64,000 bases of DNA, from positions 1 through 64,000 of the forward strand of contig CAISTS010000010.1 in assembly GCA_903888485.1 (NCBI GenBank), written 5' to 3'. Made by a program: the position numbers and the translations under genes. Shown in pieces: positions 7,317-18,938 of the stretch. A model generated the notes under the pieces. That model saw only the letters and a program-made list of their open reading frames with translations. It did not search any database and was not told where the DNA came from. The stretch is from an uncultured bacterium. GTDB lineage: Bacteria; Pseudomonadota; Alphaproteobacteria; Rhodospirillales; Rhodospirillaceae. Each line of letters starts with the position of its first letter. Position 1 is the first letter of the stretch.

Positions 7317-7389
7317 GCCCGCCTTCGCTGGAGCTTCGGCGGGCACCAGCTTTCTTAGGCTCGCTACGCTCGCCAACGAAAGCTAGGTG
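7317..7389. repeat. Two adjacent palindromes abutting the left attachment site
   Basis: The first hairpin pairs GCCCGCC (7317-7323) with GGCGGGC (7338-7344). The second is an imperfect stem pairing CACC-AGCTTTC (7344-7354) with GAAAGCT-A-GGTG (7378-7389) around a TCGCTACGCTCG core. The pattern resembles the palindromic extragenic repeats of alphaproteobacteria. The second stem runs into the att repeat. Confidence 0.5.
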
Positions 7390-7401
7390 GTGGAGGGAGA
7401 A
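7388..7401. repeat. Left attachment site (att half of the tRNA-Tyr element)
   Basis: TGGTGGAGGGAGAA is identical to 18853-18866, the 3' end of tRNA-Tyr. There is no tRNA body here, so this is the remnant copy. The integrase starts about 120 bp inside it. Confidence 0.8.
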
Positions 7402-7523
7402 TCCTCCGCACCAGTTTCTAGCATCGTCTGGCTGCGTCGGAAAAGGGTTCATTTTAGGCGCTTAAACACTACACAAGTGTATGGTGTCGTCTAGCTGCGT
7501 ATGGCACAATCCAATCCGTTATT

Positions 7524-8807
7524 GTGGGTATCGTTGAGGGTAAGCCTCTGAAACTCCGAACCACCGTCACCGGCAAACTTACCGCCCTGGACGTGAAGAA
7601 CGCCAAGGAGCCTGGCCTGTACGGCGACGGCGGCGGCCTGTGGCTCCGGGTCCAAGCCAACGGGACCAAAACCTGGGCATTCAGATACAAGCTCGGCAAG
7701 GCCAGGGAAATGGGTTTGGGGCCTCTCCACACATTTTCTTTGGCGGAGGCTCGCGACCGCGCCAGAAACGCCCGCCAACTGCTTAAGGACGGGAAAGACC
7801 CTATCGAGGTCAACCGGGACATCCTGGCTGCCGCGAAAGCCGATAAAGCCAAGGCCATCACCTTCAAGGAATGCGCCGAGCGGTACATCGAAACCCATAA
7901 AAGCGGCTGGAAGAACGCCAAGCACCTGTACCAATGGAAGGCGACGCTTAAGACCTACGCCTACCCGGTCCTGGGCGATGAGCCAGTTAACAAGGTTAAT
8001 ACGGCTCTGGTCCTGAAGGTGATCGAGCCGCTGTGGTCGTCAAAGACCGAGACCGCTTCGCGCCTTCGGGGCCGAATCGAAAAGATTTTGGATTGGGCGC
8101 GGGTTCGTGGGCATCGCCAAGGCGAAAACCCGGCGCGCTTGAAGGGGCACATTGAGAACGCCCTCCCCAAGCTCTCCGACGTGCGCAAGATCGAACATCA
8201 CCCGGCCCTGCCCTACGCCAAGGCCGGCGCATTTATGGCGGATCTTCGCAAACAGAGCGGTATCGCCTCCCGTGCCCTAGAGTTCACCGTACTGACGACG
8301 GTTCGGACCAATGAAGCCCTTGGGGCCAAGTGGCCGGAGATCGATCTGGAAAAAGCCCTCTGGATCATTCCGCCTGAGCGCATGAAGGGGCGCAAGTCCA
8401 AGGCGGTTGAACATCGCGTGCCGCTGTCAAAGCAGGCGGTGGCTGTGCTCAAGGGTCTCAAGAAGTTGGGCGACGATGCTTTCGTGTTCCCGGGTGCTTC
8501 CGAAGGTAAGCCGCTGTCGAACATGGCCATGCTGGAGGTACTGCGGCGCATGGGCCACGGCGAATTCTCCGTTCATGGTTTTCGCAGCACGTTCCGCGAT
8601 TGGGCGTCGGAACAAACGGCGTTTCCTCGCGAGGTCTGCGAGATGGCGCTAGCGCACACCATCAAAAACAAGGCGGAAGCTGCGTACCGCCGCGGCGATC
8701 TGCTCGACAAGCGCGCGAAGTTGATGGGTGCATGGGCCGATTACCTCGATAAGGTCCAGAAGGTCACCGGCAACAACGTTCTGCAATTGGCGATGGCTCT
8801 CGCTTAA
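7524..8807 (+). CDS. int: Tyrosine site-specific integrase (P4-like, DUF4102 N-terminus)
   Basis: The 427-aa protein has an N-terminal arm-binding DUF4102 domain (GLYGDGGGLWLRV near residue 32, FRYKLGKAREMGLG), a SAM-like core-binding domain (about 110-210) and a C-terminal catalytic domain. Catalytic candidates are Arg in TTVRTNEAL near 260, HGFR near 351-354, LAHTI near 377 and the nucleophile Tyr in AYRRGD near 386. Such enzymes insert elements into the 3' ends of tRNA genes, consistent with the tRNA-Tyr repeat. The start is GTG. It seems intact, so the element may still be able to move. Confidence 0.92.
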   Translation: MGIVEGKPLKLRTTVTGKLTALDVKNAKEPGLYGDGGGLWLRVQANGTKTWAFRYKLGKAREMGLGPLHTFSLAEARDRARNARQLLKDGKDPIEVNRDILAAAKADKAKAITFKECAERYIETHKSGWKNAKHLYQWKATLKTYAYPVLGDEPVNKVNTALVLKVIEPLWSSKTETASRLRGRIEKILDWARVRGHRQGENPARLKGHIENALPKLSDVRKIEHHPALPYAKAGAFMADLRKQSGIASRALEFTVLTTVRTNEALGAKWPEIDLEKALWIIPPERMKGRKSKAVEHRVPLSKQAVAVLKGLKKLGDDAFVFPGASEGKPLSNMAMLEVLRRMGHGEFSVHGFRSTFRDWASEQTAFPREVCEMALAHTIKNKAEAAYRRGDLLDKRAKLMGAWADYLDKVQKVTGNNVLQLAMALA

Positions 8808-8814
8808 CTTCTAA

Positions 8815-8869
8815 TTGGCGCGGCTAGGGTAGCTCCCGAACATCCGTCCCGCACGGATTGCCGCGCCAA
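8815..8869 (+). other. Predicted three-way-junction structured RNA or terminator after int
   Basis: A perfect 10-bp outer helix (TTGGCGCGGC 8815-8824 with GCCGCGCCAA 8860-8869) encloses two small hairpins: GGG/CCC (8827-8829 and 8835-8837) and ATCCGT/ACGGAT (8842-8847 and 8853-8858). It lies 7 bp after the integrase stop and 29 bp before the next gene, with no T tract. It may be a structured RNA or a recombination-protein site. Confidence 0.45.
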
Positions 8870-8898
8870 CCACACTGCGGAGCGCTTGCGGAGGCGCA

Positions 8899-9675
8899 AT
8901 GTATACAATACCGGTCGGATTTCTTGGCGTGGATGATGCTCTGACGCTCGCGACTAACAAGCGTTACGGCGAGCGGTTGCCGAATGGCAATAGACATTCA
9001 GCCAAGGACAAGGAGGCCTATCGGTGGGCCGAAGCACACTTGATCCTCCAAGCGCTCCGTAACGGTACGTTTTATGGTTACCTCAATCCCGGAACGCCGG
9101 AGCAATGTCGAGTTGGGCTAGAATACTGGAACGATGATTCGCAGGTTGCGGCCTTAGCGGCCAATCGGCCCGCGGACCTTGGCGGCGAATACGCATTGAT
9201 CTACTTCGATGAGTCAGAATTCAAATCGTGGCTACAAGTCCAAGACGCGGTAGAGCCGGGCATGGTCAGAATAGATCAGTACACCATGGATCCCGCGCAC
9301 GCTTCCGCCGAGATTAAGGCTCTCCTTGCCAAGCACAGCGCGGAGCAAACGCCTAAATCGCCAACGGCTGTTGACAACTCAGAGGGTTCCCCTTCAGTCG
9401 ATGGGGTCAGTCCGCCATCTCCCGAGATGCGGCGCAAACCCGCACTGAAAGCGGATGCGGAAAGCGAAGCGAAGAATATTGTGGTTGCCGAATGTGACAA
9501 GGGCATCTCGGCGGGAATCGCGCCGCGGGCGGATAGAATTGTGTCCCTCCTGACAACCGCTATGCCAAATTTTGGAAGGCGGCGAGCGCGCATAGCTGTG
9601 CGCGAAGTGTTCCAAGAGCGTGGGTTCACCGTCCGACGAGGACGCCCGCTTGCTGAGAATAATTCGCCGGAATAA
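8899..9675 (+). CDS. Hypothetical protein of the mobile element
   Basis: This 258-aa protein was not recognised. The N-terminal part (1-140) is acidic and globular with no membrane segments. The middle (about 150-185) is Ser/Pro-rich and looks like a linker. The last 70 residues (AECDKGISAGIAPRADRIVSLL onward in part) are basic and helical, ending in RRGRPLAENN, and might bind DNA. A GGAGGCGCA sequence precedes the ATG. The last codons lie inside the first copy of the iteron cluster, which hints at a link between this protein and that site. Confidence 0.65.
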   Translation: MYTIPVGFLGVDDALTLATNKRYGERLPNGNRHSAKDKEAYRWAEAHLILQALRNGTFYGYLNPGTPEQCRVGLEYWNDDSQVAALAANRPADLGGEYALIYFDESEFKSWLQVQDAVEPGMVRIDQYTMDPAHASAEIKALLAKHSAEQTPKSPTAVDNSEGSPSVDGVSPPSPEMRRKPALKADAESEAKNIVVAECDKGISAGIAPRADRIVSLLTTAMPNFGRRRARIAVREVFQERGFTVRRGRPLAENNSPE

Positions 9676-9723
9676 TTCGCCAGCATAAATTCGCCGCACG
9701 CTGGCGAATTTAGACGGCGAATT
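9661..9723. repeat. Five-copy iteron cluster (AATTCGCC / GGCGAATT)
   Basis: AATTCGCC occurs at 9661-9668, 9674-9681 and 9688-9695, and its reverse complement at 9703-9710 and 9716-9723. The spacing is 5-7 bp. AAATTCGCC (9687-9695) and GGCGAATTT (9703-9711) form a 9-bp inverted repeat, and TTCGCCAGC (9676) and GCTGGCGAA (9700) form another. It lies ahead of the AlpA-like regulator and replication genes. An origin, an operator or an excisionase site are all possible. Confidence 0.75.
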
Positions 9724-9788
9724 TTACGCCTGCCATCTTGACCTCCGTCAGTCCGGCGACGTTTCCGGACGTTTTAGCGGAGACTCCG

Positions 9789-9971
9789 ATGGAGCACGAT
9801 TCCGATGCCGACTTAAAGAGACTTCGCCCGTGGTGCGAAGCCAACGACATCCCCGTTTCAACGCTATATGAGAAACTGAAGCTGCACGGCCTGAAGCCGA
9901 TCAAGATTGGCCGAGGGTCTTACCTTGACCGCCAAACCCGCCAACTGTTCGTCACCGGACAGGTGGCGTAA
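9789..9971 (+). CDS. AlpA/excisionase-like small HTH protein
   Basis: The 60-aa protein has a single helix-turn-helix (WCEANDIPVSTLYEKLKLHG) followed by PIKIGRGSYLDRQ, the beta-wing typical of HTH_17/AlpA/Xis proteins. ATG at 9789 is preferred over an upstream TTG because GCGGAG lies a few bases before it. Family members activate int or bend DNA during excision. It sits 65 bp after the iteron cluster, which could be its binding site. The next gene starts at its stop (TAATG). Confidence 0.7.
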   Translation: MEHDSDADLKRLRPWCEANDIPVSTLYEKLKLHGLKPIKIGRGSYLDRQTRQLFVTGQVA

Positions 9972-10303
9972 TGACCTACATCAAAGCAAACGGCGCGACT
10001 CTTGGGAGCCGCGCCGCAGATGATATGGCCTTGCCGGGTCATACCGAAGATCAACACCAAGAAAATACCACCGTAGCGGCACCTGGGCAATCCAACTTTG
10101 TCCGCGTCGATGGCGGCCACTATCGCAAGGCTGACTTTGCCGAAGCGATGCGCCGTGAATCCATGCGTGGGCGGGATTGGGCCGATAGGTTCACAGACAT
10201 TCCCGCCGCAAAAAACCGCGCGAGGATCGCGGCGCTGCAGGCGCGCGAGAGCGGCACGCGCGACCCGTTCGCCCTCGTTCTGGGGGTGCCGGCCGATGAG
10301 TAA
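9971..10303 (+). CDS. Hypothetical protein of the mobile element
   Basis: This 110-aa protein is hydrophilic with no membrane segment. The second half (FAEAMRRESMRGRDWADRF, AKNRARIAALQARE) is helical and charged. It is translationally coupled to the preceding HTH gene (TAATG) and overlaps the next gene by 8 bp. The family was not recognised. Confidence 0.65.
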   Translation: MTYIKANGATLGSRAADDMALPGHTEDQHQENTTVAAPGQSNFVRVDGGHYRKADFAEAMRRESMRGRDWADRFTDIPAAKNRARIAALQARESGTRDPFALVLGVPADE

Positions 10304-10589
10304 GCGCCTCGCTGTAACTTTCACCTTAGACGACCGCCCCGACGACCTGACCGCGATAGGTCGCGACGGCTGGGCATTGTGCGAGCTTGTGAAGGCTGGC
10401 GATGCCGGCCTTACGACGCTGCAAAACCCAGCTCCGAGGTGGAGTCACTACATTTGGAAACTTCGCGGTCTCGGCGTCAACATCGAGACCGTTGACGAAT
10501 CGCACGGCGGACCGTTTGCCGGCACTCACGCGCGCTACAAGCTCAAGTCACGCGTGCGCGTCGTGGATCTTGCCGGGGGTGCCGTATGA
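10296..10589 (+). CDS. Winged-helix domain protein of the mobile element
   Basis: The 97-aa protein has a compact helix-turn-helix (GWALCELVKAGDAGLTTLQN, WSHYIWKLRGLGVNIET) followed by a strand-rich wing ending in ARYKLKSRVRVVDL. Similar small winged-helix proteins are common in alphaproteobacterial prophages. It overlaps the genes before and after it (8 and 4 bp), which places it in the replication operon. It is probably DNA-binding; the target is unknown. Confidence 0.65.
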   Translation: MSKRLAVTFTLDDRPDDLTAIGRDGWALCELVKAGDAGLTTLQNPAPRWSHYIWKLRGLGVNIETVDESHGGPFAGTHARYKLKSRVRVVDLAGGAV

Positions 10590-10825
10590 CCTGGCACAAA
10601 TTATCCGACCTGACCGCGGCTATCGTCTCCCGTCATGCCTTCCAACGGGTGATAGAGCGCCTGCCAAATGACGCGCGCGTTGAGTGGCTCTTTGATGCTG
10701 TTCACCGGCTCGAACCCTCCAAGGCCAAGCGCCTTATCCTCCAGGCGCGAAACCCCGAGGTCGCATTCCTCGATGACGGCCAAGCCGATCTTATGCTCGA
10801 TGCCCTCGGCATCCGGGAGGCGTGA
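10586..10825 (+). CDS. Hypothetical protein of the mobile element
   Basis: The 79-aa protein is mostly helical (HAFQRVIERLPNDARVEWLF, SKAKRLILQARNPEVAFLDD). There is no recognised domain, signal or membrane segment. Its ATG overlaps the previous stop (ATGA). Confidence 0.6.
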   Translation: MTWHKLSDLTAAIVSRHAFQRVIERLPNDARVEWLFDAVHRLEPSKAKRLILQARNPEVAFLDDGQADLMLDALGIREA

Positions 10826-10827
10826 GC

Positions 10828-11610
10828 ATGGCAAAGGTAAGAAAGATCGACTTCAGCCCAGACGAATTCCTGATCGGCGTTACCGGCATGAAGCCTATGG
10901 ATATTGCGGTGTACTGGGTCGCGTGCTCCCTGATGTATTCGAGCGGAGACGCGATCCAGGCCGATGACGAGCGCCTGTTCTCCATCATCAAGGCCCGCAA
11001 GTCCGACATCATCGCGACCCTCAATAGGCTGGTGGCTCGTGGCAAGTTGCAGCGAAACGGTAGCGAACTTGCACAGAAACGGTGTCGAACTGAGCTTGAA
11101 CGTGCTGCGGAGCGGATACAAAACGCAACCGATGCTGCATCGAAGCGGTGGCGAAACGAAGGTGATATTGCTTCTAAGCAAGGGGTTACAGATGCGACCG
11201 CAGAAAATGGCGCATTGCTATCACTAACTACCACTACCACCACCACCAACTCTATATCCCCGGATTCTCCGGGCGATAGTGCTGCCGTTGTTAATTTCCC
11301 CGGCGGTGAAACACCGAAGGCCGGCAGGCGTCGAAAGAACCAGCATCTTGAGCCCGAAGGGTTTGCGCCGGTCTATGACGCGTTCCCGCTGAAAGCCGAT
11401 CCCGACGACGCCGCGCGCGCCTTCCGCAAGGTTGTCGAGGCGGGCAAGGCAACGCCGGAGGAGCTGTTATTTGCGGCCAAAGCCTATGCGCGTGAGCGCG
11501 CTGGGCAGGATCCGAAGTTCACGAAGCACATGGCGACGTGGCTCAATAAGGGCAGCTACCGGAACCAGTCTCAACCCAGCCAAGCGCGTAGTGGGGGGTG
11601 TCCGCTATGA
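10828..11610 (+). CDS. DUF1376-like phage replication protein
   Basis: The protein of about 260 aa starts with DFSPDEFLIGVTGMKPMDIAVYW-type sequence and a winged-helix region up to about residue 75, as in DUF1376/YdaU replication-initiation proteins. A low-complexity linker with eight Thr follows (codons at about 11224-11250). The C-terminal domain (FAPVYDAFPLKADPDDAARAF, FTKHMATWLNKGSY) resembles the tail of phage replication and helicase-loader proteins. ATG at 10828 is chosen because GGGAGG lies 7 bp upstream; GTG at 10822 would overlap the preceding stop. Its stop overlaps the primase-helicase start. Confidence 0.7.
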   Translation: MAKVRKIDFSPDEFLIGVTGMKPMDIAVYWVACSLMYSSGDAIQADDERLFSIIKARKSDIIATLNRLVARGKLQRNGSELAQKRCRTELERAAERIQNATDAASKRWRNEGDIASKQGVTDATAENGALLSLTTTTTTTNSISPDSPGDSAAVVNFPGGETPKAGRRRKNQHLEPEGFAPVYDAFPLKADPDDAARAFRKVVEAGKATPEELLFAAKAYARERAGQDPKFTKHMATWLNKGSYRNQSQPSQARSGGCPL

Positions 11611-13346
11611 GCCTGCAAGCAAACCTGCTCGATAACGGCATCCGGCTCCGGGGCTATGGCGAAGGCTCAAGCAAAGTTCTGTGTCCGCGATGCTCGCACA
11701 CCAGGAAAAACAAGACTGAGCCGTGCCTGTCGGTAACGGTCGATGACAAGGGCGCGACTTGGCTTTGCCATAACTGCGGCTGGAGCGGCGCGGCCAATGA
11801 GCGCGAGCGCAACGTCGTCCCGATGCGTCGGCCCGTGAAGGTCGAGCACAAGCCCGGCGGCTTGCCGGCGAACATCGTTGAATGGTTCGCAAAGCGCGGT
11901 ATCCCGGCAACCGTGCTGGAGCGCAACCGCATAGGCCACGAGCATGTGTGGATGCCCGGCTGCGAGAGCGGCGCAACGGAACCCGCGATAACATTCCCCT
12001 ACGTGCGCGGCGGCGAGGTCGTGAATGTGAAGTATCGCGGCCAGGGCAAACGGTTCAGACAGGTGAAGGACGCCGAAAAGATCTATTTCGGCCTGGATGA
12101 CATCACCGGGCAATCGACGGTGATTATCTGCGAGGGCGAGCTAGACAAGCTGGCGCTCGAAGTGGCCGGTTATCTCAACGTCGTATCCGTGCCCGATGGC
12201 GCGCCGAAGCTGGTGAAGGATCAAACCCCGGACCCTGAAGAGGACAAGAAATTCTCCTATGTCTGGAACTGTCGCGAGGCGTTCGAGAATGTCACCAAGA
12301 TCATATTGGCGGTCGATGGCGACGGGCCCGGCGAAGCCCTGGCCGAAGAGTTGGCGCGGCGCTATGGCAAGGTTCGCTGCTGGCGCGTGACTTGGCCCAG
12401 CGCGGGCGATGTCGCGTGCAAGGATGCAAACGAGGTCTTGGTCGATCACGGGCTCGAAGTTCTGCGCGAGGTGATCGAAGGCGCGCAACCGTATCCCATC
12501 AAGTCGCTGTATGACGCTGGTGTGTATGAGTCCGACGTTCTGCGGCTCTATCGCGGCGAGACGGCAAAAAGCTATTCCACGGGCTGGCCGGCAGTCGATG
12601 AGCTGTATCGCGTGCGCCCTGGCGAGTTGACCGTCGTAACCGGCGTCCCGAATAGCGGCAAGTCTCAGTGGGTGGACGCCTTGAGCGTAAACCTGATGAC
12701 CGCAAGCGGCTGGCGGGTGGCCTATTGCTCGTTTGAGAATCCCCCGGCGCAACATCTCGCCAAGCTGGCGGAGTTGTATCTGCGCGCGCCGTTCTGGGAG
12801 GGGCCACACTTCACGCGCATGAGCGAAGCCGAATTGCGGTCGGCAGTCGCTTGGCTAAGGGAACGGGCTTACCTGATCCGGGCAGAGGATGAATCCCCAA
12901 CGATTGATTGGGTCCTGGAAACCGCGGCGGCGGCTGTCATGCGTCACGGCATCAAGGGGCTGGTCATAGACCCGTTCAATGAACTTGAGTCCCAGCGGCC
13001 TCCGCATCAAACAGAAACCGAATACGTGAGCGGTCTCCTATCCAAGGTCAAACGCTTCGCCCAGTCGCATGGCGTCCACGTCTGGTTCGTCGCGCATCCG
13101 GCGAAGATGTACCGGGGCCAGGACGGCAAGCTGCCTATTCCGTCGCTCTACGACATCGCCGGCTCGGCTCATTGGGTCAACAAGGCAGATGTCGGCATCG
13201 TTGTCGCGCGCGATTGGGATACCGGCGTTGTCACGGTTCACGTCAAAAAGGTCCGCTTCAAGGAAATCGGCACGGTTGGCGCTGTGACGCTCGATTACGA
13301 GAAATCGTCGGGCCGGTACAAAAACGCGCAACGGGTGGGGGCGTAG
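11607..13346 (+). CDS. T7 gp4/Twinkle-like primase-helicase
   Basis: The 579-aa protein has a zinc-ribbon primase head (CPRC near residue 26 and CHNC near 53), a TOPRIM domain (IICEGELDKLAL near 173, AVDGDGPG near 238) and a C-terminal RecA/DnaB-type helicase with Walker A GVPNSGKSQ near 345, Walker B LVIDPFNELE near 452 and a HVWFVAHP strand. One chain can thus prime and unwind, as in T7 gp4. ATG at 11607 overlaps the upstream stop (ATGA). The DxD-type TOPRIM motif is present. It argues that the element directs its own replication. Confidence 0.9.
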   Translation: MSLQANLLDNGIRLRGYGEGSSKVLCPRCSHTRKNKTEPCLSVTVDDKGATWLCHNCGWSGAANERERNVVPMRRPVKVEHKPGGLPANIVEWFAKRGIPATVLERNRIGHEHVWMPGCESGATEPAITFPYVRGGEVVNVKYRGQGKRFRQVKDAEKIYFGLDDITGQSTVIICEGELDKLALEVAGYLNVVSVPDGAPKLVKDQTPDPEEDKKFSYVWNCREAFENVTKIILAVDGDGPGEALAEELARRYGKVRCWRVTWPSAGDVACKDANEVLVDHGLEVLREVIEGAQPYPIKSLYDAGVYESDVLRLYRGETAKSYSTGWPAVDELYRVRPGELTVVTGVPNSGKSQWVDALSVNLMTASGWRVAYCSFENPPAQHLAKLAELYLRAPFWEGPHFTRMSEAELRSAVAWLRERAYLIRAEDESPTIDWVLETAAAAVMRHGIKGLVIDPFNELESQRPPHQTETEYVSGLLSKVKRFAQSHGVHVWFVAHPAKMYRGQDGKLPIPSLYDIAGSAHWVNKADVGIVVARDWDTGVVTVHVKKVRFKEIGTVGAVTLDYEKSSGRYKNAQRVGA

Positions 13347-13348
13347 GC

Positions 13349-13645
13349 ATGAGCGAGCATCTTGCAACCCAACCCGAGACACCCGCGCCGGCATTCGAGC
13401 CGGAAGAAATCGACGCCGAAGAGGTCGCAGAGTGCGCCCGGCGGCTAATGGTTTGGCTCCTGCAATACAGGGGCTCCGTCGTGGTTTTGCGACATATCTG
13501 CCGGTTCGGGCCCTACCGCGTGCGGCGCGTCGATGTAGCGCGGCGGTCAATGAACCTGCTGGCGGCTAGAGGGCTGGTTACGCCGGTTCCGAATATCCGC
13601 ATTAAGCATCGTTTGAACAAAGAAGCGTGGGTGATTCAAGTATGA
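13349..13645 (+). CDS. Small winged-helix-like hypothetical protein
   Basis: The 98-aa protein has an acidic start (residues 1-30) followed by a likely DNA-binding fold (RRLMVWLLQYRGSVVVLRHI, RRVDVARRSMNLLAARGLV) and a basic end. It begins 2 bp after the helicase stop and overlaps the next gene by 4 bp. The family was not recognised. Confidence 0.6.
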   Translation: MSEHLATQPETPAPAFEPEEIDAEEVAECARRLMVWLLQYRGSVVVLRHICRFGPYRVRRVDVARRSMNLLAARGLVTPVPNIRIKHRLNKEAWVIQV

Positions 13646-14163
13646 GCATGACATGCACAATTTGCCGACATCCCGACCGAACCGAAATTGAATTGGAGGC
13701 GGTGCGCGGCGTTTCATACCGCAACATAGCGGAACACCGTGATATTTCTGCAACGGCGGTATTCCGGCACGTCAAAGAGCATTTGCCGGCGATGCTTGCG
13801 GCATCCGAAGAGGCGCGCGAGTTCGCCTGCGCTGAAACCATCATGGGCCAGATTGAAGGGCTGCGGGATTCGGCGCTGCGGATTCTGCATAAGGCCGAAC
13901 AGTCCTGGGAGGACACGCCCGAGGCTTACGATCCCGAAACGGCGCTGAAGGCTATTCGCGAGGCGCGCGGCTGCGTCGAGCTAATGGCGAAGGTGGCCGG
14001 CGAGATAAAGGACGGTCCGACGTTCAACGTCACGCTGTCGGCGGAATGGGTACAGGTGCAAAGCATCATCCTAGGGGCCCTGAGCGCCCATCCCGAGGCG
14101 CGCGTCGCTGTCGCTGGGGCACTCAAGCAACTGGAGGCACCTGTCGATGCTGATGCGGCGTAA
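13642..14163 (+). CDS. HTH protein upstream of terminase; candidate small terminase subunit
   Basis: The 173-aa protein begins with a CTIC zinc-like motif and a helix-turn-helix (VRGVSYRNIAEHRDISATAV, then FRHVKEHL), followed by a long helical region (about 60-130) that could drive oligomerisation. Small terminase subunits have this layout and lie directly before the large subunit; here it overlaps the terminase ATPase gene by 17 bp. ATG at 13642 forms ATGA with the previous stop. It could instead be a transcriptional regulator. Confidence 0.6.
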   Translation: MSMTCTICRHPDRTEIELEAVRGVSYRNIAEHRDISATAVFRHVKEHLPAMLAASEEAREFACAETIMGQIEGLRDSALRILHKAEQSWEDTPEAYDPETALKAIREARGCVELMAKVAGEIKDGPTFNVTLSAEWVQVQSIILGALSAHPEARVAVAGALKQLEAPVDADAA

Positions 14164-14971
14164 GGTGCGGGGCCCGGCTATTCACGTTCGCGGGGCGATG
14201 GCGTCGGATCTGGCGGCGGCGCTGGACCCGGTTGTGTTCGCGCAAGACAAACTCGCATTTGACCCTGATGGCTGGCAGGGGGACTTTTTGCGCGAAACCA
14301 AGAACAGCTTGCTCAATTGCTCGCGGCAGTCCGGGAAGTCTACGACCACGAGCGTTAAGGGGCTGCACGTCGCTACCTATCAGCCGGGCGCGCTCGTGCT
14401 GCTCGTGTCGAAGGCATTTCGGCAGTCGCAAGAGCTCTTCGGCAAGGTGACAGACTTCCGCAAGCGTCTTGAACCCGGCCCGGTGCTGATCGAGGACAAC
14501 AAACTCTCCGCCACCTTCAAGAGCGGCAGCCGCATCGTTTGTCTGCCGGGCTCGGGCGATACCATTCGCGGATTTAGTGGGCCCAGGCTCATTATCGAGG
14601 ACGAGGCCGCATTCGTTGACGACGGCGTTTATACCGCGGTGCGTCCCATGCTCGCGGTTTCGGGTGGGCAGCTCGTAATGATGTCCACGCCGCACGGTAA
14701 GCGGGGGCACTTCTACGAGGCGCACAAATCAAACGAGTTCCGCGTATTCACCGTGACCGCGGACCAATGCCCGCGCATCTCGAAGGAATTCTTGGAGAGC
14801 GAGCGTAAAGCGCTGGGCGACGCGGCCTACAGGCAGGAATATTTTTGCGAATTTCTCGATACGACGGATCAGGTTTTCAAGTCCGAGCATATCGAGCGCG
14901 CCATCACTGACGACGTGAAGCCCCTATTCGGACCGGCGGGCCAATTCGTCGTCCAACCCCTCAAGTTCTAG
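14147..14971 (+). CDS. Terminase large subunit, ATPase domain only
   Basis: The 274-aa protein has the packaging-motor ATPase signatures: Walker A-like CSRQSGKST near residue 57, VLLVSKAFRQSQE, Walker B LIIEDEAAF near 149 and the coupling motif MMSTPHGKRGHF. It ends at QFVVQPLKF, exactly where a normal TerL of about 450-500 aa would begin its RNase-H-like nuclease domain. That domain is encoded separately by the next two genes. The stop is followed within 8 bp by a Shine-Dalgarno (GGAGTAACC) and a new ATG, so the break is an orderly gene boundary and not an obvious frameshift. Confidence 0.85.
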   Translation: MLMRRKVRGPAIHVRGAMASDLAAALDPVVFAQDKLAFDPDGWQGDFLRETKNSLLNCSRQSGKSTTTSVKGLHVATYQPGALVLLVSKAFRQSQELFGKVTDFRKRLEPGPVLIEDNKLSATFKSGSRIVCLPGSGDTIRGFSGPRLIIEDEAAFVDDGVYTAVRPMLAVSGGQLVMMSTPHGKRGHFYEAHKSNEFRVFTVTADQCPRISKEFLESERKALGDAAYRQEYFCEFLDTTDQVFKSEHIERAITDDVKPLFGPAGQFVVQPLKF

Positions 14972-14979
14972 GAGTAACC

Positions 14980-15660
14980 ATGCGATACCTGAAACACTAC
15001 CTCGTTGGCGTCTCGGTCGGCATTGCCTCGCAACCCTCGGCTATCGCAATTGTCGAAGCGGAGTCAGTGACGGCGCACGGTGAGCTAACGGGCAAAATAA
15101 AAACCATGCGCCTTCGGCACCTGCAACGGCTGCCTCTCAGCGCCACCTATCCCAACCTTGCGGAACAGTTGCGCTCGCTGCGCGACGGATTGAAAGCGCA
15201 TGAAGAGGGCCCGTCGTCCGCGCTGATTGTGGACGTAACCGGCACCGGGCGCAGCGTCACCAAGTTCCTACGCGATGACACTTTGGAACCGATAGAGGTC
15301 TGCATCACCGCCGGCATGGGCCAAGCAGAAGTCGAGCCGGGATATTGGCGCGTTTCCAAGAAAGAGTTGGTCGGCCAACTCCAGGTCCTTATGCAGTCCG
15401 ATAGCTTCCAGGTTTCCAGTGGGCTCGATCTCGTGCCTGAGTTCACGGAAGAAATGCGGAATTTCCGGATGCGCGCGAGCGCCGCGGCTGGCGACGATAT
15501 CGACTCTTGGCGCGATAGCACGGCAGATGACTTGGTATTTGCGACCGCTCTCGCGACGTGGCGGGGGCAAACAGACATCCCGCCCTCAAAGGCCGCATTG
15601 GCAGATCTATATAAGAAGTTGGATGAACACTCCAAGATGATGGCGCAATGCGTCGCCTAA
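14980..15660 (+). CDS. Terminase-nuclease-like protein, motif I altered
   Basis: The 226-aa protein resembles a free-standing TerL C-terminal (RNase-H fold) domain. The first strand reads LVGVSVGIASQPSAIAIVE, where the usual catalytic Asp (GVDxG) is Ser. The second Asp is kept in LIVDVTGTGRSV near residue 83, and the third site is kept as ADDLVFATALATW near 182. Loss of the first acidic residue suggests weak or no nuclease activity, so it may be a structural or regulatory partner. It overlaps the following, catalytically complete homologue by 13 bp. Confidence 0.7.
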   Translation: MRYLKHYLVGVSVGIASQPSAIAIVEAESVTAHGELTGKIKTMRLRHLQRLPLSATYPNLAEQLRSLRDGLKAHEEGPSSALIVDVTGTGRSVTKFLRDDTLEPIEVCITAGMGQAEVEPGYWRVSKKELVGQLQVLMQSDSFQVSSGLDLVPEFTEEMRNFRMRASAAAGDDIDSWRDSTADDLVFATALATWRGQTDIPPSKAALADLYKKLDEHSKMMAQCVA

Positions 15661-16157
15661 CCATTGGCGTCGATCTTGGGCAGGCAAACGATCCGACGGC
15701 CATCGCGATTGCAGAGGACGGGAGGCATATCCGGCACCTTGAGCGCGTCGCGTTAGGCACTCCATATCCGCAGGTAATCAATCGCGTTCGCGTGCTGCAC
15801 GACGCCTTGCCCGGGTGCCGGCTCGTGGTCGATCGAACCGGCGTCGGTCGTGCCGTGGTCGATGCAATGGAAGAGTCAGGGCTTGCACCTATCGTCGTTA
15901 CCATAACATCGGGGAAGAGCATTCGGCGCGAAGGCAATCGGATATGGATGCCAAAGCGGCTGTTGATTAGCCCGGTGGTGTCGGCGCTGGAAGCGGGGAC
16001 GTTGCGGATCGCGGCGGGGCTGAGTGAGGGGCCGGCGCTGCTGCGAGAACTGCAAGCCTTCAAAGTCAAGCGGGGCGAAGGCGGGCACTTGGGCTATGAG
16101 GGCAAGGGCGAGCATGATGACTTTGTGATAGCGGTAGCGCTGTCTTTGGGAGTTTGA
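15648..16157 (+). CDS. Terminase-nuclease-like protein, catalytic motifs intact
   Basis: The 169-aa protein is a compact RNase-H-fold TerL nuclease: IGVDLGQANDPTAIAIAED (Asp near residue 9), LVVDRTGVGRAVVDAM (Asp near 62) and GEHDDFVIAVALSLG (Asp pair near 156). All three acidic sites expected for two-metal DNA cleavage are present. It shares layout and motif order with the preceding gene, so the two look like duplicated modules. With the ATPase gene at 14147 it could rebuild a terminase from separate chains. Confidence 0.75.
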   Translation: MRRLTIGVDLGQANDPTAIAIAEDGRHIRHLERVALGTPYPQVINRVRVLHDALPGCRLVVDRTGVGRAVVDAMEESGLAPIVVTITSGKSIRREGNRIWMPKRLLISPVVSALEAGTLRIAAGLSEGPALLRELQAFKVKRGEGGHLGYEGKGEHDDFVIAVALSLGV

Positions 16158-16161
16158 AGTA

Positions 16162-16380
16162 ATGAAACGGTCGGAGGCGGAGCCTTTAATCATTCGTCAG
16201 TGGGAAATTTGGGTGTTTGAGAATGTCCCTGACGGTAAACCAGCGACGGGCAGGCATGGCCTTCAATTCTTCTCTTATCTACAGGAGAAACACTCCGCCT
16301 TGTTGAGCTTCAAAAGTCACGGCGACAAATGGCAGACCGTTCACTCCATCCTGGTGAATCATGGGAGAGTGGCCGACTAG
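16162..16380 (+). CDS. Small hypothetical protein
   Basis: The 72-aa soluble protein (EIWVFENVPDGKPATGRHG, VHSILVNHGRVAD) has no recognised family. It starts 4 bp after the nuclease gene and is read in the same direction, so it probably ends the operon. About 260 bp with no clear gene follow it before the methyltransferase. Confidence 0.55.
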   Translation: MKRSEAEPLIIRQWEIWVFENVPDGKPATGRHGLQFFSYLQEKHSALLSFKSHGDKWQTVHSILVNHGRVAD

Positions 16381-16639
16381 CCATTGCCCCGGTATTTTGC
16401 GGCTTCGGCCCAGCGCTTAAGTGCCGTAGCTGCGCAGATTAACTATCATCGGGTCTGACTCGACCCGACCAAAGCCGAAGATATAGACTGTCCCTACTCG
16501 AATGGGGACGGTTGCACATCTGAGTGGCAGCATGGTGCATCTGGGCTGCTCAATCTGCCTCAAGCCACTGGCGTCAGACCAAGTTGACTTTTTTTGGCAA
16601 TAGCAGTGCGAAGCCATTGCTCGTTTTCGGAGGTTGTTG

Positions 16640-17227
16640 ATGGGAGATGTGAACCAGCTCATTTACCTCAAAAGTGTCATGCCCTCCGTATCAGGGCCGA
16701 TACTTGAGGTGGGAAGCAAGGATTACGGAAGCACATCTAGTTTCCGTGAATTCTATACGGGACAAGACTACACCGGCATAGACATGGAAGCCGGCAGGAA
16801 TGTGGACCACGTTGTGGATTTAACTCAGGGCACTACGGGGCTGCAACCGCGCCACTTTGCGCTTGGCATCTGCTGTTCCGTACTTGAACACGTGAAGAAG
16901 CCATGGTTATTCGCGGAGCATCTTTCAAGCGTGTTGAGGCCAGGTGGTGCATTGTACATGTCCGTTCCGTGGGTTTGGCGCTACCACGCCTATCCGGACG
17001 ACTATTTTCGGTTCTCCTGGCGAGGCGTCATGGAGCTGTTTCCGGCCTTCACGTGGAGCAAAATCTGCTATTCGACCACCGTGCCGAATGAGTTCATTGA
17101 AATAGGCCCAGATAGTTTGGGCGCCGACAACGCTATGGCGGCCATCGCAGAAACGCCCCAAGGAAAGAGAAAGTACTTGCCGTACTTGATGGTCAATATG
17201 CTCGGTCACAAGAGCGCAGCCGACTAG
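16640..17227 (+). CDS. Class I SAM-dependent methyltransferase
   Basis: The 195-aa protein has motif I ILEVGSKDYG near residue 22, an acidic GIDMEAG after the second strand, a CCSVLEHVKKPW post-motif and LRPGGALYMSVPW, all typical of small-molecule or sugar methyltransferases. CGGAGG lies before the ATG. The base composition looks lower in GC than the chromosome around the element. It is tail-to-tail, 2 bp apart, with the SGNH-like gene. As element cargo, the pair could modify a surface glycan; the substrate is unknown. Confidence 0.8.
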   Translation: MGDVNQLIYLKSVMPSVSGPILEVGSKDYGSTSSFREFYTGQDYTGIDMEAGRNVDHVVDLTQGTTGLQPRHFALGICCSVLEHVKKPWLFAEHLSSVLRPGGALYMSVPWVWRYHAYPDDYFRFSWRGVMELFPAFTWSKICYSTTVPNEFIEIGPDSLGADNAMAAIAETPQGKRKYLPYLMVNMLGHKSAAD

Positions 17228-17229
17228 AG

Positions 17230-18102
17230 CTACGATTTACCGCTCCAAATTTTCTCTTCAAGCGCACGCGCGATATGTTTCCCATATTCGGACGATCCGT
17301 GTGTCAGTCCGCCAGACAGAGACGATTTCAAAAATCCTTCTCTCGTGACTGTATTAGCGGGAGGCGGAAGCACTTCGCATCCATTTGCTTCAAGAACCAT
17401 AGACAGCAAGCGGCAATACCGGCGATACCATTTCAACCGGATCGGGTCAGGCGCGAACCCGTACTCGAGGACAAATGCCTCGAGCTTTTCGAGGTAGCTG
17501 GAGGATTGGGGATTTTCCACGGGTGCCGGCGGCAATACATGTATTACTCGGGACCCTGTAATCGCCTTAATTGCCGTGAGCGTTGGCGCAACGACTGCGA
17601 GCCATGCGTCGATCACTTGATCTATGAACATTGTATCGATGGGGACCGCATCGCTGGACGGATTGATGTCGGCAACTTCGGGGTCAATAAAGTCATAGGG
17701 CGGCAGATGGCCTAACATCATTCTTGCGTGTTCGTTACCGTGCATGAAGGAGACAATGGGAGTATTCGCCGGCAGTTCCCTCAGAACGTCCAGGAATTGC
17801 GGTTGGATTTGCAGTTTGGTGCGACCATCTCGTTCCACAAACTCAACGCCGGTTTTGAAGGAGCTCGTCCGCGAAATAAGCCGTGCGAGTAAACGACGCG
17901 ACCGCAGACCGGGCTCAGTAACATTGACCGCTAAGACTTCGGCTGGGAACGCACCCGAACGCCAACCTTGGTAGGCTTCGCTATATCTCGGATCCTTGGG
18001 AGTAGAAGTATTTGGCGCGCTGTGTTGGCGCCAGTCGGTTACTCCGTCGAGAAAAGCAATAGCGTGGCTATGGCCTAACACTACGAAATCATATTCCGGC
18101 AT
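17230..18102 (-). CDS. SGNH-hydrolase-like protein
   Basis: The protein of about 290 aa starts with FVVLGHSHAIAFLDG, which has the position and shape of the SGNH block I with His in place of Asp. It has VSFMHGNEH in the middle and GLTHGSSEYGKHI near the C terminus, where block V would supply the catalytic His. There is no signal peptide. GGAGGT directly before the ATG at 18102 decides the start. Related proteins occur in glycan gene clusters. Function as an esterase or acyltransferase is inferred, not shown. Confidence 0.6.
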   Translation of the reverse strand: MPEYDFVVLGHSHAIAFLDGVTDWRQHSAPNTSTPKDPRYSEAYQGWRSGAFPAEVLAVNVTEPGLRSRRLLARLISRTSSFKTGVEFVERDGRTKLQIQPQFLDVLRELPANTPIVSFMHGNEHARMMLGHLPPYDFIDPEVADINPSSDAVPIDTMFIDQVIDAWLAVVAPTLTAIKAITGSRVIHVLPPAPVENPQSSSYLEKLEAFVLEYGFAPDPIRLKWYRRYCRLLSMVLEANGCEVLPPPANTVTREGFLKSSLSGGLTHGSSEYGKHIARALEEKIWSGKS

Positions 18103-18156
18103 AGCACCTCCCACGACGATGGCAATACCTGTAAACCAAGCAGGGAGAGTGCAATT

Positions 18157-18297
18157 TCATACAAACTCCTCGCCGCGGTCCGGCGAATGGTAGACAGTGC
18201 AAGGGCCTTCTATAGATGCCATTGATAGCAGGTCGCTACGGCTCTCGTAACGCTTTGTCGTGTGGGTCAGAACGTAGGTTGTTCTCCCCTCGTCCAT
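18157..18297 (-). CDS. Possible small protein (46 aa)
   Basis: An open frame starts MDEGRTTYVLTHTTKRYES and ends DRGEEFV, with protein-like composition, 54 bp upstream of the SGNH-like gene on the same strand. No strong ribosome-binding site is visible and no family was recognised. Confidence 0.35.
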   Translation of the reverse strand: MDEGRTTYVLTHTTKRYESRSDLLSMASIEGPCTVYHSPDRGEEFV

Positions 18298-18349
18298 TCT
18301 AACAGACTCATTTTCCACGCGATTTTACGCTTGCGTACAGGAAGCGCTG

Positions 18350-18760
18350 GTGGGATCGCCTGCCGTGGTCGATGGCGACACTCTGCGGTTTGATAAGGAT
18401 CGGGTAAGGCTGTTCGGCATCGACGCTCCCGAGGGCAAACAATCCTGCCAACGTGACGGGGTGGCGTGGCTGTGCGGGCAGGAGGCGGCGAAGTACCTGC
18501 GCGAGATGGTGGCCGGTGAATACCTGTCATGCGCCGAGCGGAACCGGGACCGTTACGGGCGGATTGTCGGCGTCTGCTCTCTGGCCGATGGGCGCGACCT
18601 GGGCGCGCTGATGGTCGAAGCGGGGTACGCCCTCGCCTATCGTCGCTACGGCGGCAAGATGTACGACGCAGCGGAGACATCCGCAAAAGTGGCCCGTCGA
18701 GGGCTCTGGGCCGGAGAATTTGTGGCCCCGTGGGAATGGCGCCGAAAAGGCAGCCATTAA
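18350..18760 (+). CDS. Thermonuclease (SNase-like) family protein
   Basis: The 136-aa protein is a complete SNase fold: VVDGDTLRF at the start, the Arg-containing VRLFGIDAPEGKQ, RDRYGRIVGVC, and a C-terminal RRGLWAG motif. Conserved Asp and Arg active-site residues are present. The annotated start is GTG. The upstream in-frame sequence does not give a convincing signal peptide, although most relatives are secreted. It is the last gene inside the element and lies about 90 bp from the right att. It may degrade DNA or be an old chromosomal gene trapped in the island. Confidence 0.8.
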   Translation: MGSPAVVDGDTLRFDKDRVRLFGIDAPEGKQSCQRDGVAWLCGQEAAKYLREMVAGEYLSCAERNRDRYGRIVGVCSLADGRDLGALMVEAGYALAYRRYGGKMYDAAETSAKVARRGLWAGEFVAPWEWRRKGSH

Positions 18761-18808
18761 CCAAATCAATTAGTTATTAATGTGGGTATGGGCGTGGGTT
18801 ACCCAATG

Positions 18809-18848
18809 CCCAATATTTAACTCATTGATAAATAAGTCAAATATTGGG
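18809..18848. repeat. 10-bp inverted repeat beside the right attachment site
   Basis: CCCAATATTT (18809-18818) and AAATATTGGG (18839-18848) are perfect complements separated by 20 AT-rich bases, ending 4 bp before the att core. It could be an integrase or Xis arm site, or a terminator for the thermonuclease gene. Confidence 0.5.
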
Positions 18849-18852
18849 GAAT

Positions 18853-18866
18853 TGGTGGAGGGAGAA
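18853..18866. repeat. Right attachment site within tRNA-Tyr
   Basis: This is the second copy of the 14-bp direct repeat, identical to 7388-7401. It forms the acceptor 3' strand and CCA of the intact tRNA-Tyr. Confidence 0.8.
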
Positions 18867-18938
18867 GGATTCGAACCTTCGTAGACATAAGTCGGCAGAT
18901 TTACAGTCTGCTGCCATTGACCGCTCGGCCATCCCTCC
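18853..18938 (-). tRNA. tRNA-Tyr (anticodon GUA), integration target
   Basis: The reverse complement is an 86-nt class II tRNA. It has acceptor GGAGGGA, a long variable arm, anticodon loop CTGTAAA, T arm GGTTCGAATCC and encoded CCA. The gene is kept whole by the element's att sequence. Confidence 0.95.

Follow-up and report, generated by a model that had tools for sequence, protein, structure and literature searches.

An island at a tRNA-Tyr gene of an uncultured Rhodospirillaceae bacterium with a domain-split terminase and no detectable particle genes: a probable phage satellite with its own motor

What kind of mobile element carries genes for a DNA-packaging motor and no detectable gene for a particle? 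The question is raised by a 64,000-nucleotide stretch of DNA, hereafter the window (positions 1 to 64,000 of contig CAISTS010000010.1, assembly GCA_903888485.1), from an uncultured bacterium of the Rhodospirillaceae whose metagenome-assembled genome (MAG) comprises 3.49 Mb in 89 contigs and is 91% complete. A first-pass annotation, made from the letters alone, had described here an 11.5-kb tRNA-Tyr element. We think it probable that this region is a phage-satellite-like island, integrated at tRNA-Tyr, which brings its own motor and borrows the proheads of a helper.

The boundaries of the element are exact. Its 11,465 bp sit precisely at the 3' end of tRNA-Tyr, as established by empty-site comparison and a direct repeat: TGGTGGAGGGAGAA, a 14-bp exact repeat of the tRNA 3' end, occurs at 7388 and again at 18853, with a chance expectation, by arithmetic, of about 5e-5 copies in 12.8 kb. 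A search found the flanking DUF3297 gene in 16 of 19 same-genus genomes, the window's own counted. At the other 15 loci, tRNA-Tyr lies within the examined flank in 11, one host gene of about 460-550 aa separates DUF3297 from the tRNA/RlmB side in three (G004, G005, G013), and the contig ends in the remaining one (G015). In two examples (L073; L074 with L033) no gene interrupts the order DUF3297, tRNA-Tyr site, RlmB. At the empty site L032 (genome G018), a left flank resembling that of the window continues directly and unbroken into the tRNA, thus the insertion is exact and its length is 11,465 bp. Relatives in which the same genes are joined at this site by a structural module, which the first-pass annotation had named as the sign of a deletion remnant, were looked for at the 15 same-genus loci, and none was found.

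The gene content, read with the profile libraries Pfam, PHROGs and NCBIfam (E, expectation value), is as follows, with coordinates in the window and the strand in brackets:

7388..7401 (no strand): attachment (att) repeat, displaced copy of the tRNA-Tyr 3' end; 14-bp exact repeat, empty-site comparison
7524..8807 (+): tyrosine integrase, 427 aa; PF22022, PF13356, PF00589; phrog_1, E 3.5e-52
8899..9675 (+): protein of 258 aa, no family match
9738..9971 (+): small protein, helix-turn-helix-looking by eye; no family
9971..10303 (+): protein of 110 aa, no family match
10296..10589 (+): winged-helix protein (HTH_91), 97 aa; PF22324, E 8e-33
10586..10825 (+): protein of 79 aa, no significant family
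10822..11610 (+): replication initiator or primosomal-like protein (DUF1376-like), 262 aa; phrog_9327, E 4e-31; DUF1376 below the Pfam cut-off
11598..13346 (+): primase-helicase (Toprim and DnaB-like), 582 aa; phrog_239, E 5e-97; Toprim_4, AAA_25, DnaB_C
13349..13645 (+): protein of 98 aa, no family match
13627..14163 (+): small terminase subunit (TerS)-like, 178 aa; homology and synteny in relatives
14147..14971 (+): free-standing ATPase domain of the large terminase subunit (TerL), 274 aa; PF03237; phrog_7579, E 5.5e-62
14980..15660 (+): nucA, TerL-nuclease fold, predicted pseudo-nuclease from motifs, clade and model; phrog_27743, E 1.5e-26
15648..16157 (+): nucB, free-standing TerL nuclease of 169 aa that retains the acidic motifs; phrog_27743, E 4.7e-32
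16162..16380 (+): protein of 72 aa, no family match
16634..17227 (+): cargo, S-adenosylmethionine methyltransferase-like; weak Methyltransf_11/12/23, below cut-off
17230..18114 (-): cargo, protein of 294 aa, no family match
18350..18760 (+): cargo, staphylococcal-nuclease-like; PF00565, E 1e-17; 32% identity to the pSR14 thermonuclease
18853..18938 (-): tRNA-Tyr, the integration target, by ARAGORN; its 3' end, 18853-18866, is the second att repeat

Thus annotated, the element has an integrase, att-bounded integration and a predicted replication module of its own, which are traits expected of a satellite. The integrase had been called intact and a replication protein and a primase-helicase had been proposed, and all three assignments are borne out by the profiles. 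The AlpA-like regulator suggested at 9738-9971 fares differently: it has no profile match in any of the three libraries, and a master regulator of the Stl/AlpA type is not confirmed. The core genes all run rightward and are open, mostly with short overlaps from 9.7 kb onward. GC content is 53-56% at 16-19 kb and mostly about 60% at 7-16 kb, and the low-GC tail looks like cargo. A staphylococcal-nuclease-like gene stands on three split-terminase elements, namely the window (18350-18760) and the Salinibacter plasmids pSR14 (L193, 11919-12437) and pSR31 (L195, 15931-16599), identified on both plasmids by annotation and compared by sequence for pSR14 only.

The terminase is divided rather than broken. 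The first-pass annotation had described a split terminase, and alignment with relatives places it at the domain border, so that one protein holds the ATPase and separate proteins hold the nuclease, which is moreover duplicated. The 274-aa TerL stops where the fused TerL of Meiothermus and Thermus phages continues into its nuclease. Its family profile matches the solved ATPase PDB 4zni (E 5e-20), and the profile of the downstream nuclease open reading frames (ORFs) matches the solved TerL nuclease 5m1q/5m1f (E 6e-17). The residues that we take to be Walker-type motifs are invariant in the ATPase alignments. Two PHROGs families hold the pieces, phrog_7579 for the ATPase and phrog_27743, of unknown function in PHROGs, for the nuclease. 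The ATPase protein ends at the border in 8 of 8 split relatives aligned; in the wider set of split loci the end falls within about 25 aa of it in most, and about a dozen viral loci are 46-178 aa longer. On the strength of these ends a single broken TerL gene is rejected. The TerS-like ORF has no family of its own in Pfam, PHROGs or NCBIfam; it is named for its homology and shared position with the ORF that precedes TerL in relatives (45% identity to L019, E 2e-41). Its homologue in Thermus phage Riverbug is annotated as hypothetical, and that record names another ORF as TerS. The locus L019 (9440-11467, Rhodospirillaceae BH24) has TerS, TerL ATPase and nuclease alone between host-looking genes, with no integrase or primase seen nearby.

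Particle genes were not detected, as had been reported from the letters. Terminase matches aside, the PHROGs scans of the 17 proteins of the element gave no match at E 0.001 to any family of portals, capsids, head assembly or tails. A full set of particle genes was thus not detected, and 8 of the 17 have no family. Neighbouring ORFs were scanned likewise in sets of 64 (six loci), 44 (six further loci) and 46 leftover ORFs (six of them from the window). The ORFs had been called with a greedy finder, which left some spurious antisense ones among them; TerL and nuclease ORFs were kept out, and from set A6 most recognised ORFs had been removed beforehand. The families listed, in each case the first 25, of 84, 82 and 64, are integrase, primase, repressor, anti-repressor, excisionase, TerS, late-activator, toxin-antitoxin and unnamed ones, with no portal, capsid or tail family among them. 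As a positive control, PHROGs does identify major head proteins and a portal or connector in the split-TerL phages L053, L004, L006 and L120. Portals and major capsid proteins of five phage loci (these four and Riverbug) were also used as phmmer queries. They match none of 24 genome or plasmid loci, a set that includes two duplicates (L016=L065; L025 and L026 on one contig) and from which decayed and unresolved cases were left out. The same queries match 21 of 55 viral loci, or 17 of 51 without the four self-matching loci.

The architecture recurs. A nuclease profile at a cut-off of E 1e-5 was run on three overlapping draws of genomes, from the class (5 of 385 matched), the order (10 of 317) and the phylum (11 of 398). 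Together these give 22 distinct genomes, which were sorted by manual reading of gene maps. Ten carry complete-looking capsid-less elements (G000, which is the window, G006, G253, G303, G601, G853, G710, G842, G764 and G704) sharing a core of integrase, primase, TerS, TerL ATPase and nuclease, with no particle genes detected. A tRNA gene lies within the examined stretch in nine of them (Tyr, Lys, Arg, Gly, Val, Phe, Asn, Glu and Ser) and none was seen in that of G601. Four elements are cut by contig ends (G770, G813 at tRNA Ser, G467 at tRNA Pro, and G471), G480 has the terminase trio alone with no mobility gene seen nearby, five are decayed or remnant (G419, G020, G602, G055, G685), and G291 and G1024 were left unsorted. 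Exact repeats bound the elements of G853 (51-bp repeats, 10,444 bp) and G006 (54-bp repeats, 10,796 bp). The 648-aa ORF of G006 was missed by primase phmmer queries and matches PDB 6k9e, a solved primase (E 1e-18), as well as the pSR11 primase; the primase of G601 matches PDB 7ola (E 1e-6). G303 (L067) is a divergent member, with 33% identity in TerL and an integrase ORF running off the edge of the stretch examined. G006 and G303 carry the cyclic-oligonucleotide-based antiphage signalling system (CBASS), with cyclase and phospholipase and in G303 also CapP, and G601 has a CBASS-type phospholipase effector. Separately, a split-terminase contig of Acetobacter sacchari (L021, 15,129 bp) ends after the nuclease, and the coverage of 437 in its assembly name may indicate a multicopy state.

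TerL is kept by purifying selection in two capsid-less pairs. By the Nei-Gojobori method (NG86), the ratio of nonsynonymous to synonymous divergence (dN/dS) is 0.08 for G006/G601 and 0.09 for G853/G770, which counts against decay. It is 0.15 for TerS of G006/G601 and 0.18 for the nuclease of G853/G770, and pSR14/pSR31 give 0.24 for TerL and a weaker 0.45 for the nuclease. Since dS is high (1.0-2.4 where given), these ratios are rough, and 2 of the 8 comparisons, namely window nucA with L102 nucA and the G006/G601 nucleases, were dS-saturated and gave no ratio. A satellite or a self-replicating island had been suggested earlier, and the core in ten genomes, nine of them with a tRNA, together with this selection on TerL, supports that suggestion.

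The duplicated nuclease adds a further feature. While nucB retains the acidic motifs, nucA reads GVSVGxxxQ in place of GVDLGxxxD, with Ser and Gln replacing the first two Asp. The same substitutions occur in the copies of L016 and G467 (L101) and, more distantly, L116, and the nucA copy of G020 (L102) is cut before the substituted motif. The nucA rows (window, L016, G467, L102, L116) form one clade (98/94, 98% of bootstraps), read with the caveat of a long L116 branch, and a further group (97/87) unites the nucB copies of the window, L016 and G467. Catalytic assignment of the substituted Asp comes from alignment of nucA and nucB to 5m1q, together with what we take to be their role in that structure. 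The AlphaFold model of nucA has a mean confidence (pLDDT) of 87, and its sole PDB match below E 0.001 is the herpes pUL15 nuclease domain, at a template-modelling (TM) score of 0.5. We thus read nucA as a partner that is old, kept and probably inactive; its role may be structural or regulatory, alongside nucB or the ATPase. Two loci with such copies can be noted. L102 (G020:C13, 8592-16135) comes from a different genus within the family; this decayed relative sits at tRNA-Thr, with a nucA copy, a truncated nucB and further nuclease scraps, and a 13-bp tRNA repeat spanning 7.5 kb. L116 (IMG/VR, a contig fragment of 10,760 bp) has a tape-measure-like gene closely upstream of TerS, a split TerL, an active-looking nuclease and a pseudo-nuclease, a serine-recombinase-looking ORF and an integrase.

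We propose the following mechanism, in which the steps and their order are read from the genes. The integrase would insert and excise the element, and the initiator and primase-helicase would replicate it. TerS would select element DNA, the free-standing TerL ATPase would pump it and the free-standing nuclease would cut it. Since no portal, capsid or tail is detectable, the motor would dock on the proheads of another phage, a co-infecting or resident tailed one.

Several observations weigh against this proposal. The window's 91% complete MAG has no match to PF04860, PF05065 or PF05136, the only three families searched. Across 16 carrier genomes, PF04860 was found in 2 (one below cut-off), PF05065 in 2 and PF05136 in 6; no match to these families lies on any element contig, and no matched genome is claimed as a source of the helper. 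Classical satellites borrow the TerL of the helper, and bringing a whole motor is unexplained. A convincing att repeat was absent in 7 of 11 tRNA-adjacent cases tested. Among the 8 of 17 proteins outside any family there may be an unrecognised particle protein. Finally, capsid-less and phage rows are mixed on the TerL tree, with 6 label changes of which at least 3 are forced, and with this scatter the common descent of the elements as one family is not demonstrated. One origin for them is thus unsupported; with label shuffling the mean is 7.6 changes, and in 70 of 500 shuffles the number is no higher than the observed 6. The tree has 68 rows, 42 of them unlabelled, and long branches (L067, L194) make parts of it unsure; rows weaker than E 1e-40, shorter than 200 residues or on the duplicate/fragment list were dropped beforehand, and L116 and L194 are labelled as satellites, though L116 is a contig fragment. 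In this tree the window and L016 form a supported pair (96/83). On this tree the TerL split is either older than the border between phages and satellites or runs across it, and there may have been several gains or losses of the motor-only state.

Three other explanations were weighed against a motor-bringing satellite. The element could be a decayed prophage, that is, a split-TerL phage which lost everything downstream of the terminase. Split-TerL phages with portal and capsid do exist (L004, L006, L053 and L120 by PHROGs, L117 and L139 by phmmer), their structural module comes after terL, where the window has cargo, and there are the five decayed or remnant copies listed above. However, ten elements with different primases and tRNA sites stop at the same point, purifying selection acts on TerL in two capsid-less pairs, the core of the window's element consists of open genes that mostly overlap from 9.7 kb on, and the nucA/nucB pair is retained in separate lineages. 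The phages with split TerL, portal and capsid have only the terminase in common with these islands. Recurrence and selection on TerL thus weaken decay as the main explanation, and we regard it as unlikely.

It is also conceivable that the terminase was domesticated in an anti-phage or competition island, where the motor would occupy helper portals or cut phage DNA, for defence and not for transfer. The CBASS or CBASS effector adjoining the terminase in G006, G303 and G601 and the inactive-looking nucA copy would fit such a role, but the integrase, the replication module and the att repeats speak for mobility, the nucB and ATPase motifs are retained, and a satellite could do both; we find this more improbable than decay. 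Least probable, in our estimate, is a self-sufficient plasmid-like or virus-like replicon with its own unrecognised particle. This idea draws on pSR11 and pSR14 of Salinibacter ruber, which carry an annotated primase upstream of TerL, an ATPase-only TerL followed by a separate nuclease, ParA and tape-measure-like hits, on pSR31 with its TerL, nuclease and ParA, and on L127 (IMG/VR, 17,738 bp), which has 87-bp terminal repeats, a TerS-like ORF, a split TerL with nuclease and a ParA-looking ORF and in which phmmer found no portal or capsid. Yet replication, terminase and cargo genes leave the integrated elements little space for further coding, no candidate structural gene common to them was noticed, though no systematic search was made, and the tape-measure matches to coiled coils are weak.

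How does the element, read as a satellite with its own motor, compare with known systems? In the available text of PMC6092414, phage-inducible chromosomal islands (PICIs), including the Staphylococcus aureus pathogenicity islands (SaPIs), have TerS at most and rely on helper packaging, and the word terL does not occur. The element is like PICIs, as described there, in size, integrase, replication genes, the TerS of some PICIs and the use of phage virion proteins; it differs in a full TerL in separate proteins and in having no confirmed AlpA/Stl switch. Where PICIs package through the helper TerL, it has genes predicted to encode its own TerL ATPase and nuclease. Capsid-forming PICIs (cfPICIs) and the Mulch/Flayer satellites carry TerS and TerL in the accessible part of PMC10690885, in common with the element, but they also encode portal and capsid, neither of which was detected here. 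Phage-inducible chromosomal minimalist islands (PICMIs) are small, with integrase and primase and no capsid-remodelling genes, and the main text of PMC10803314, as available, lacks the word terminase. The element shares these features, whereas the motor is its hallmark, it lies at tRNA-Tyr and not next to fis, and, set against the int-alpA-prim core of PICMIs, it has no AlpA profile match. Nor was the portal-capsid-tail module of a Caudoviricetes prophage detected in it.

Homologous TerL ATPase and nuclease occur in Meiothermus phages MMP7 and MMP17, Thermus phage Riverbug and the viral contigs L004, L006, L053 and L120, with 39-54% identity in the ATPase for those compared. The four contigs have the same TerL split as the element, but with portal or connector and major head proteins; MMP17 and Riverbug have annotated head and tail genes, and their TerL is one protein of 415-417 aa. 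The Salinibacter plasmids pSR11, pSR14 and pSR31 all share with the element an ATPase-only TerL with a separate nuclease after it; they have no annotated capsid and differ from the element as circular plasmids with ParA. On pSR11 (L192) and pSR14 (L193) there is a 600-residue tape-measure-like protein with weak, coiled-coil-prone matches, and pSR31 (L195) has two nuclease copies. The portion available of a 2018 Salinibacter genome paper (PMC6060240) mentions terminases on small plasmids and gives no interpretation. In the available text of these papers, of a 2024 review (PMC11389934) and of the Charybdis preprint (PMC12324425), we found no account of a satellite that combines a complete terminase, split by domain, with the lack of portal and capsid; this comparison did not extend to virion-encapsidated integrative mobile elements (VEIMEs).

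Satellites in the literature compared, as far as its accessible text goes, either take the helper TerL or bring portal and capsid with their own. With slightly more doubt than conviction, we suggest a recurrent, polyphyletic class of motor-only satellites, tRNA-integrated or plasmid-borne, in several bacterial groups. Such a satellite would replace the whole motor of the helper, not just the subunit for DNA recognition. Its ATPase and nuclease would be encoded by separate genes and joined, in one lineage, by a dead nuclease that is conserved as an additional subunit; with the cutter separable, it could impose a cleavage rule of its own on a foreign portal. Here is a natural system with terminase ATPase and nuclease as separate proteins and a conserved, probably inactive partner, which lends itself to studying how translocation is coupled to cutting. 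Parts of this reading are testable, since relatives reside on plasmids of cultured Salinibacter. If the reading is true, terminases would be swappable between unrelated procapsids, and the specificity between motor and portal would be either looser than assumed or adapted by these elements.

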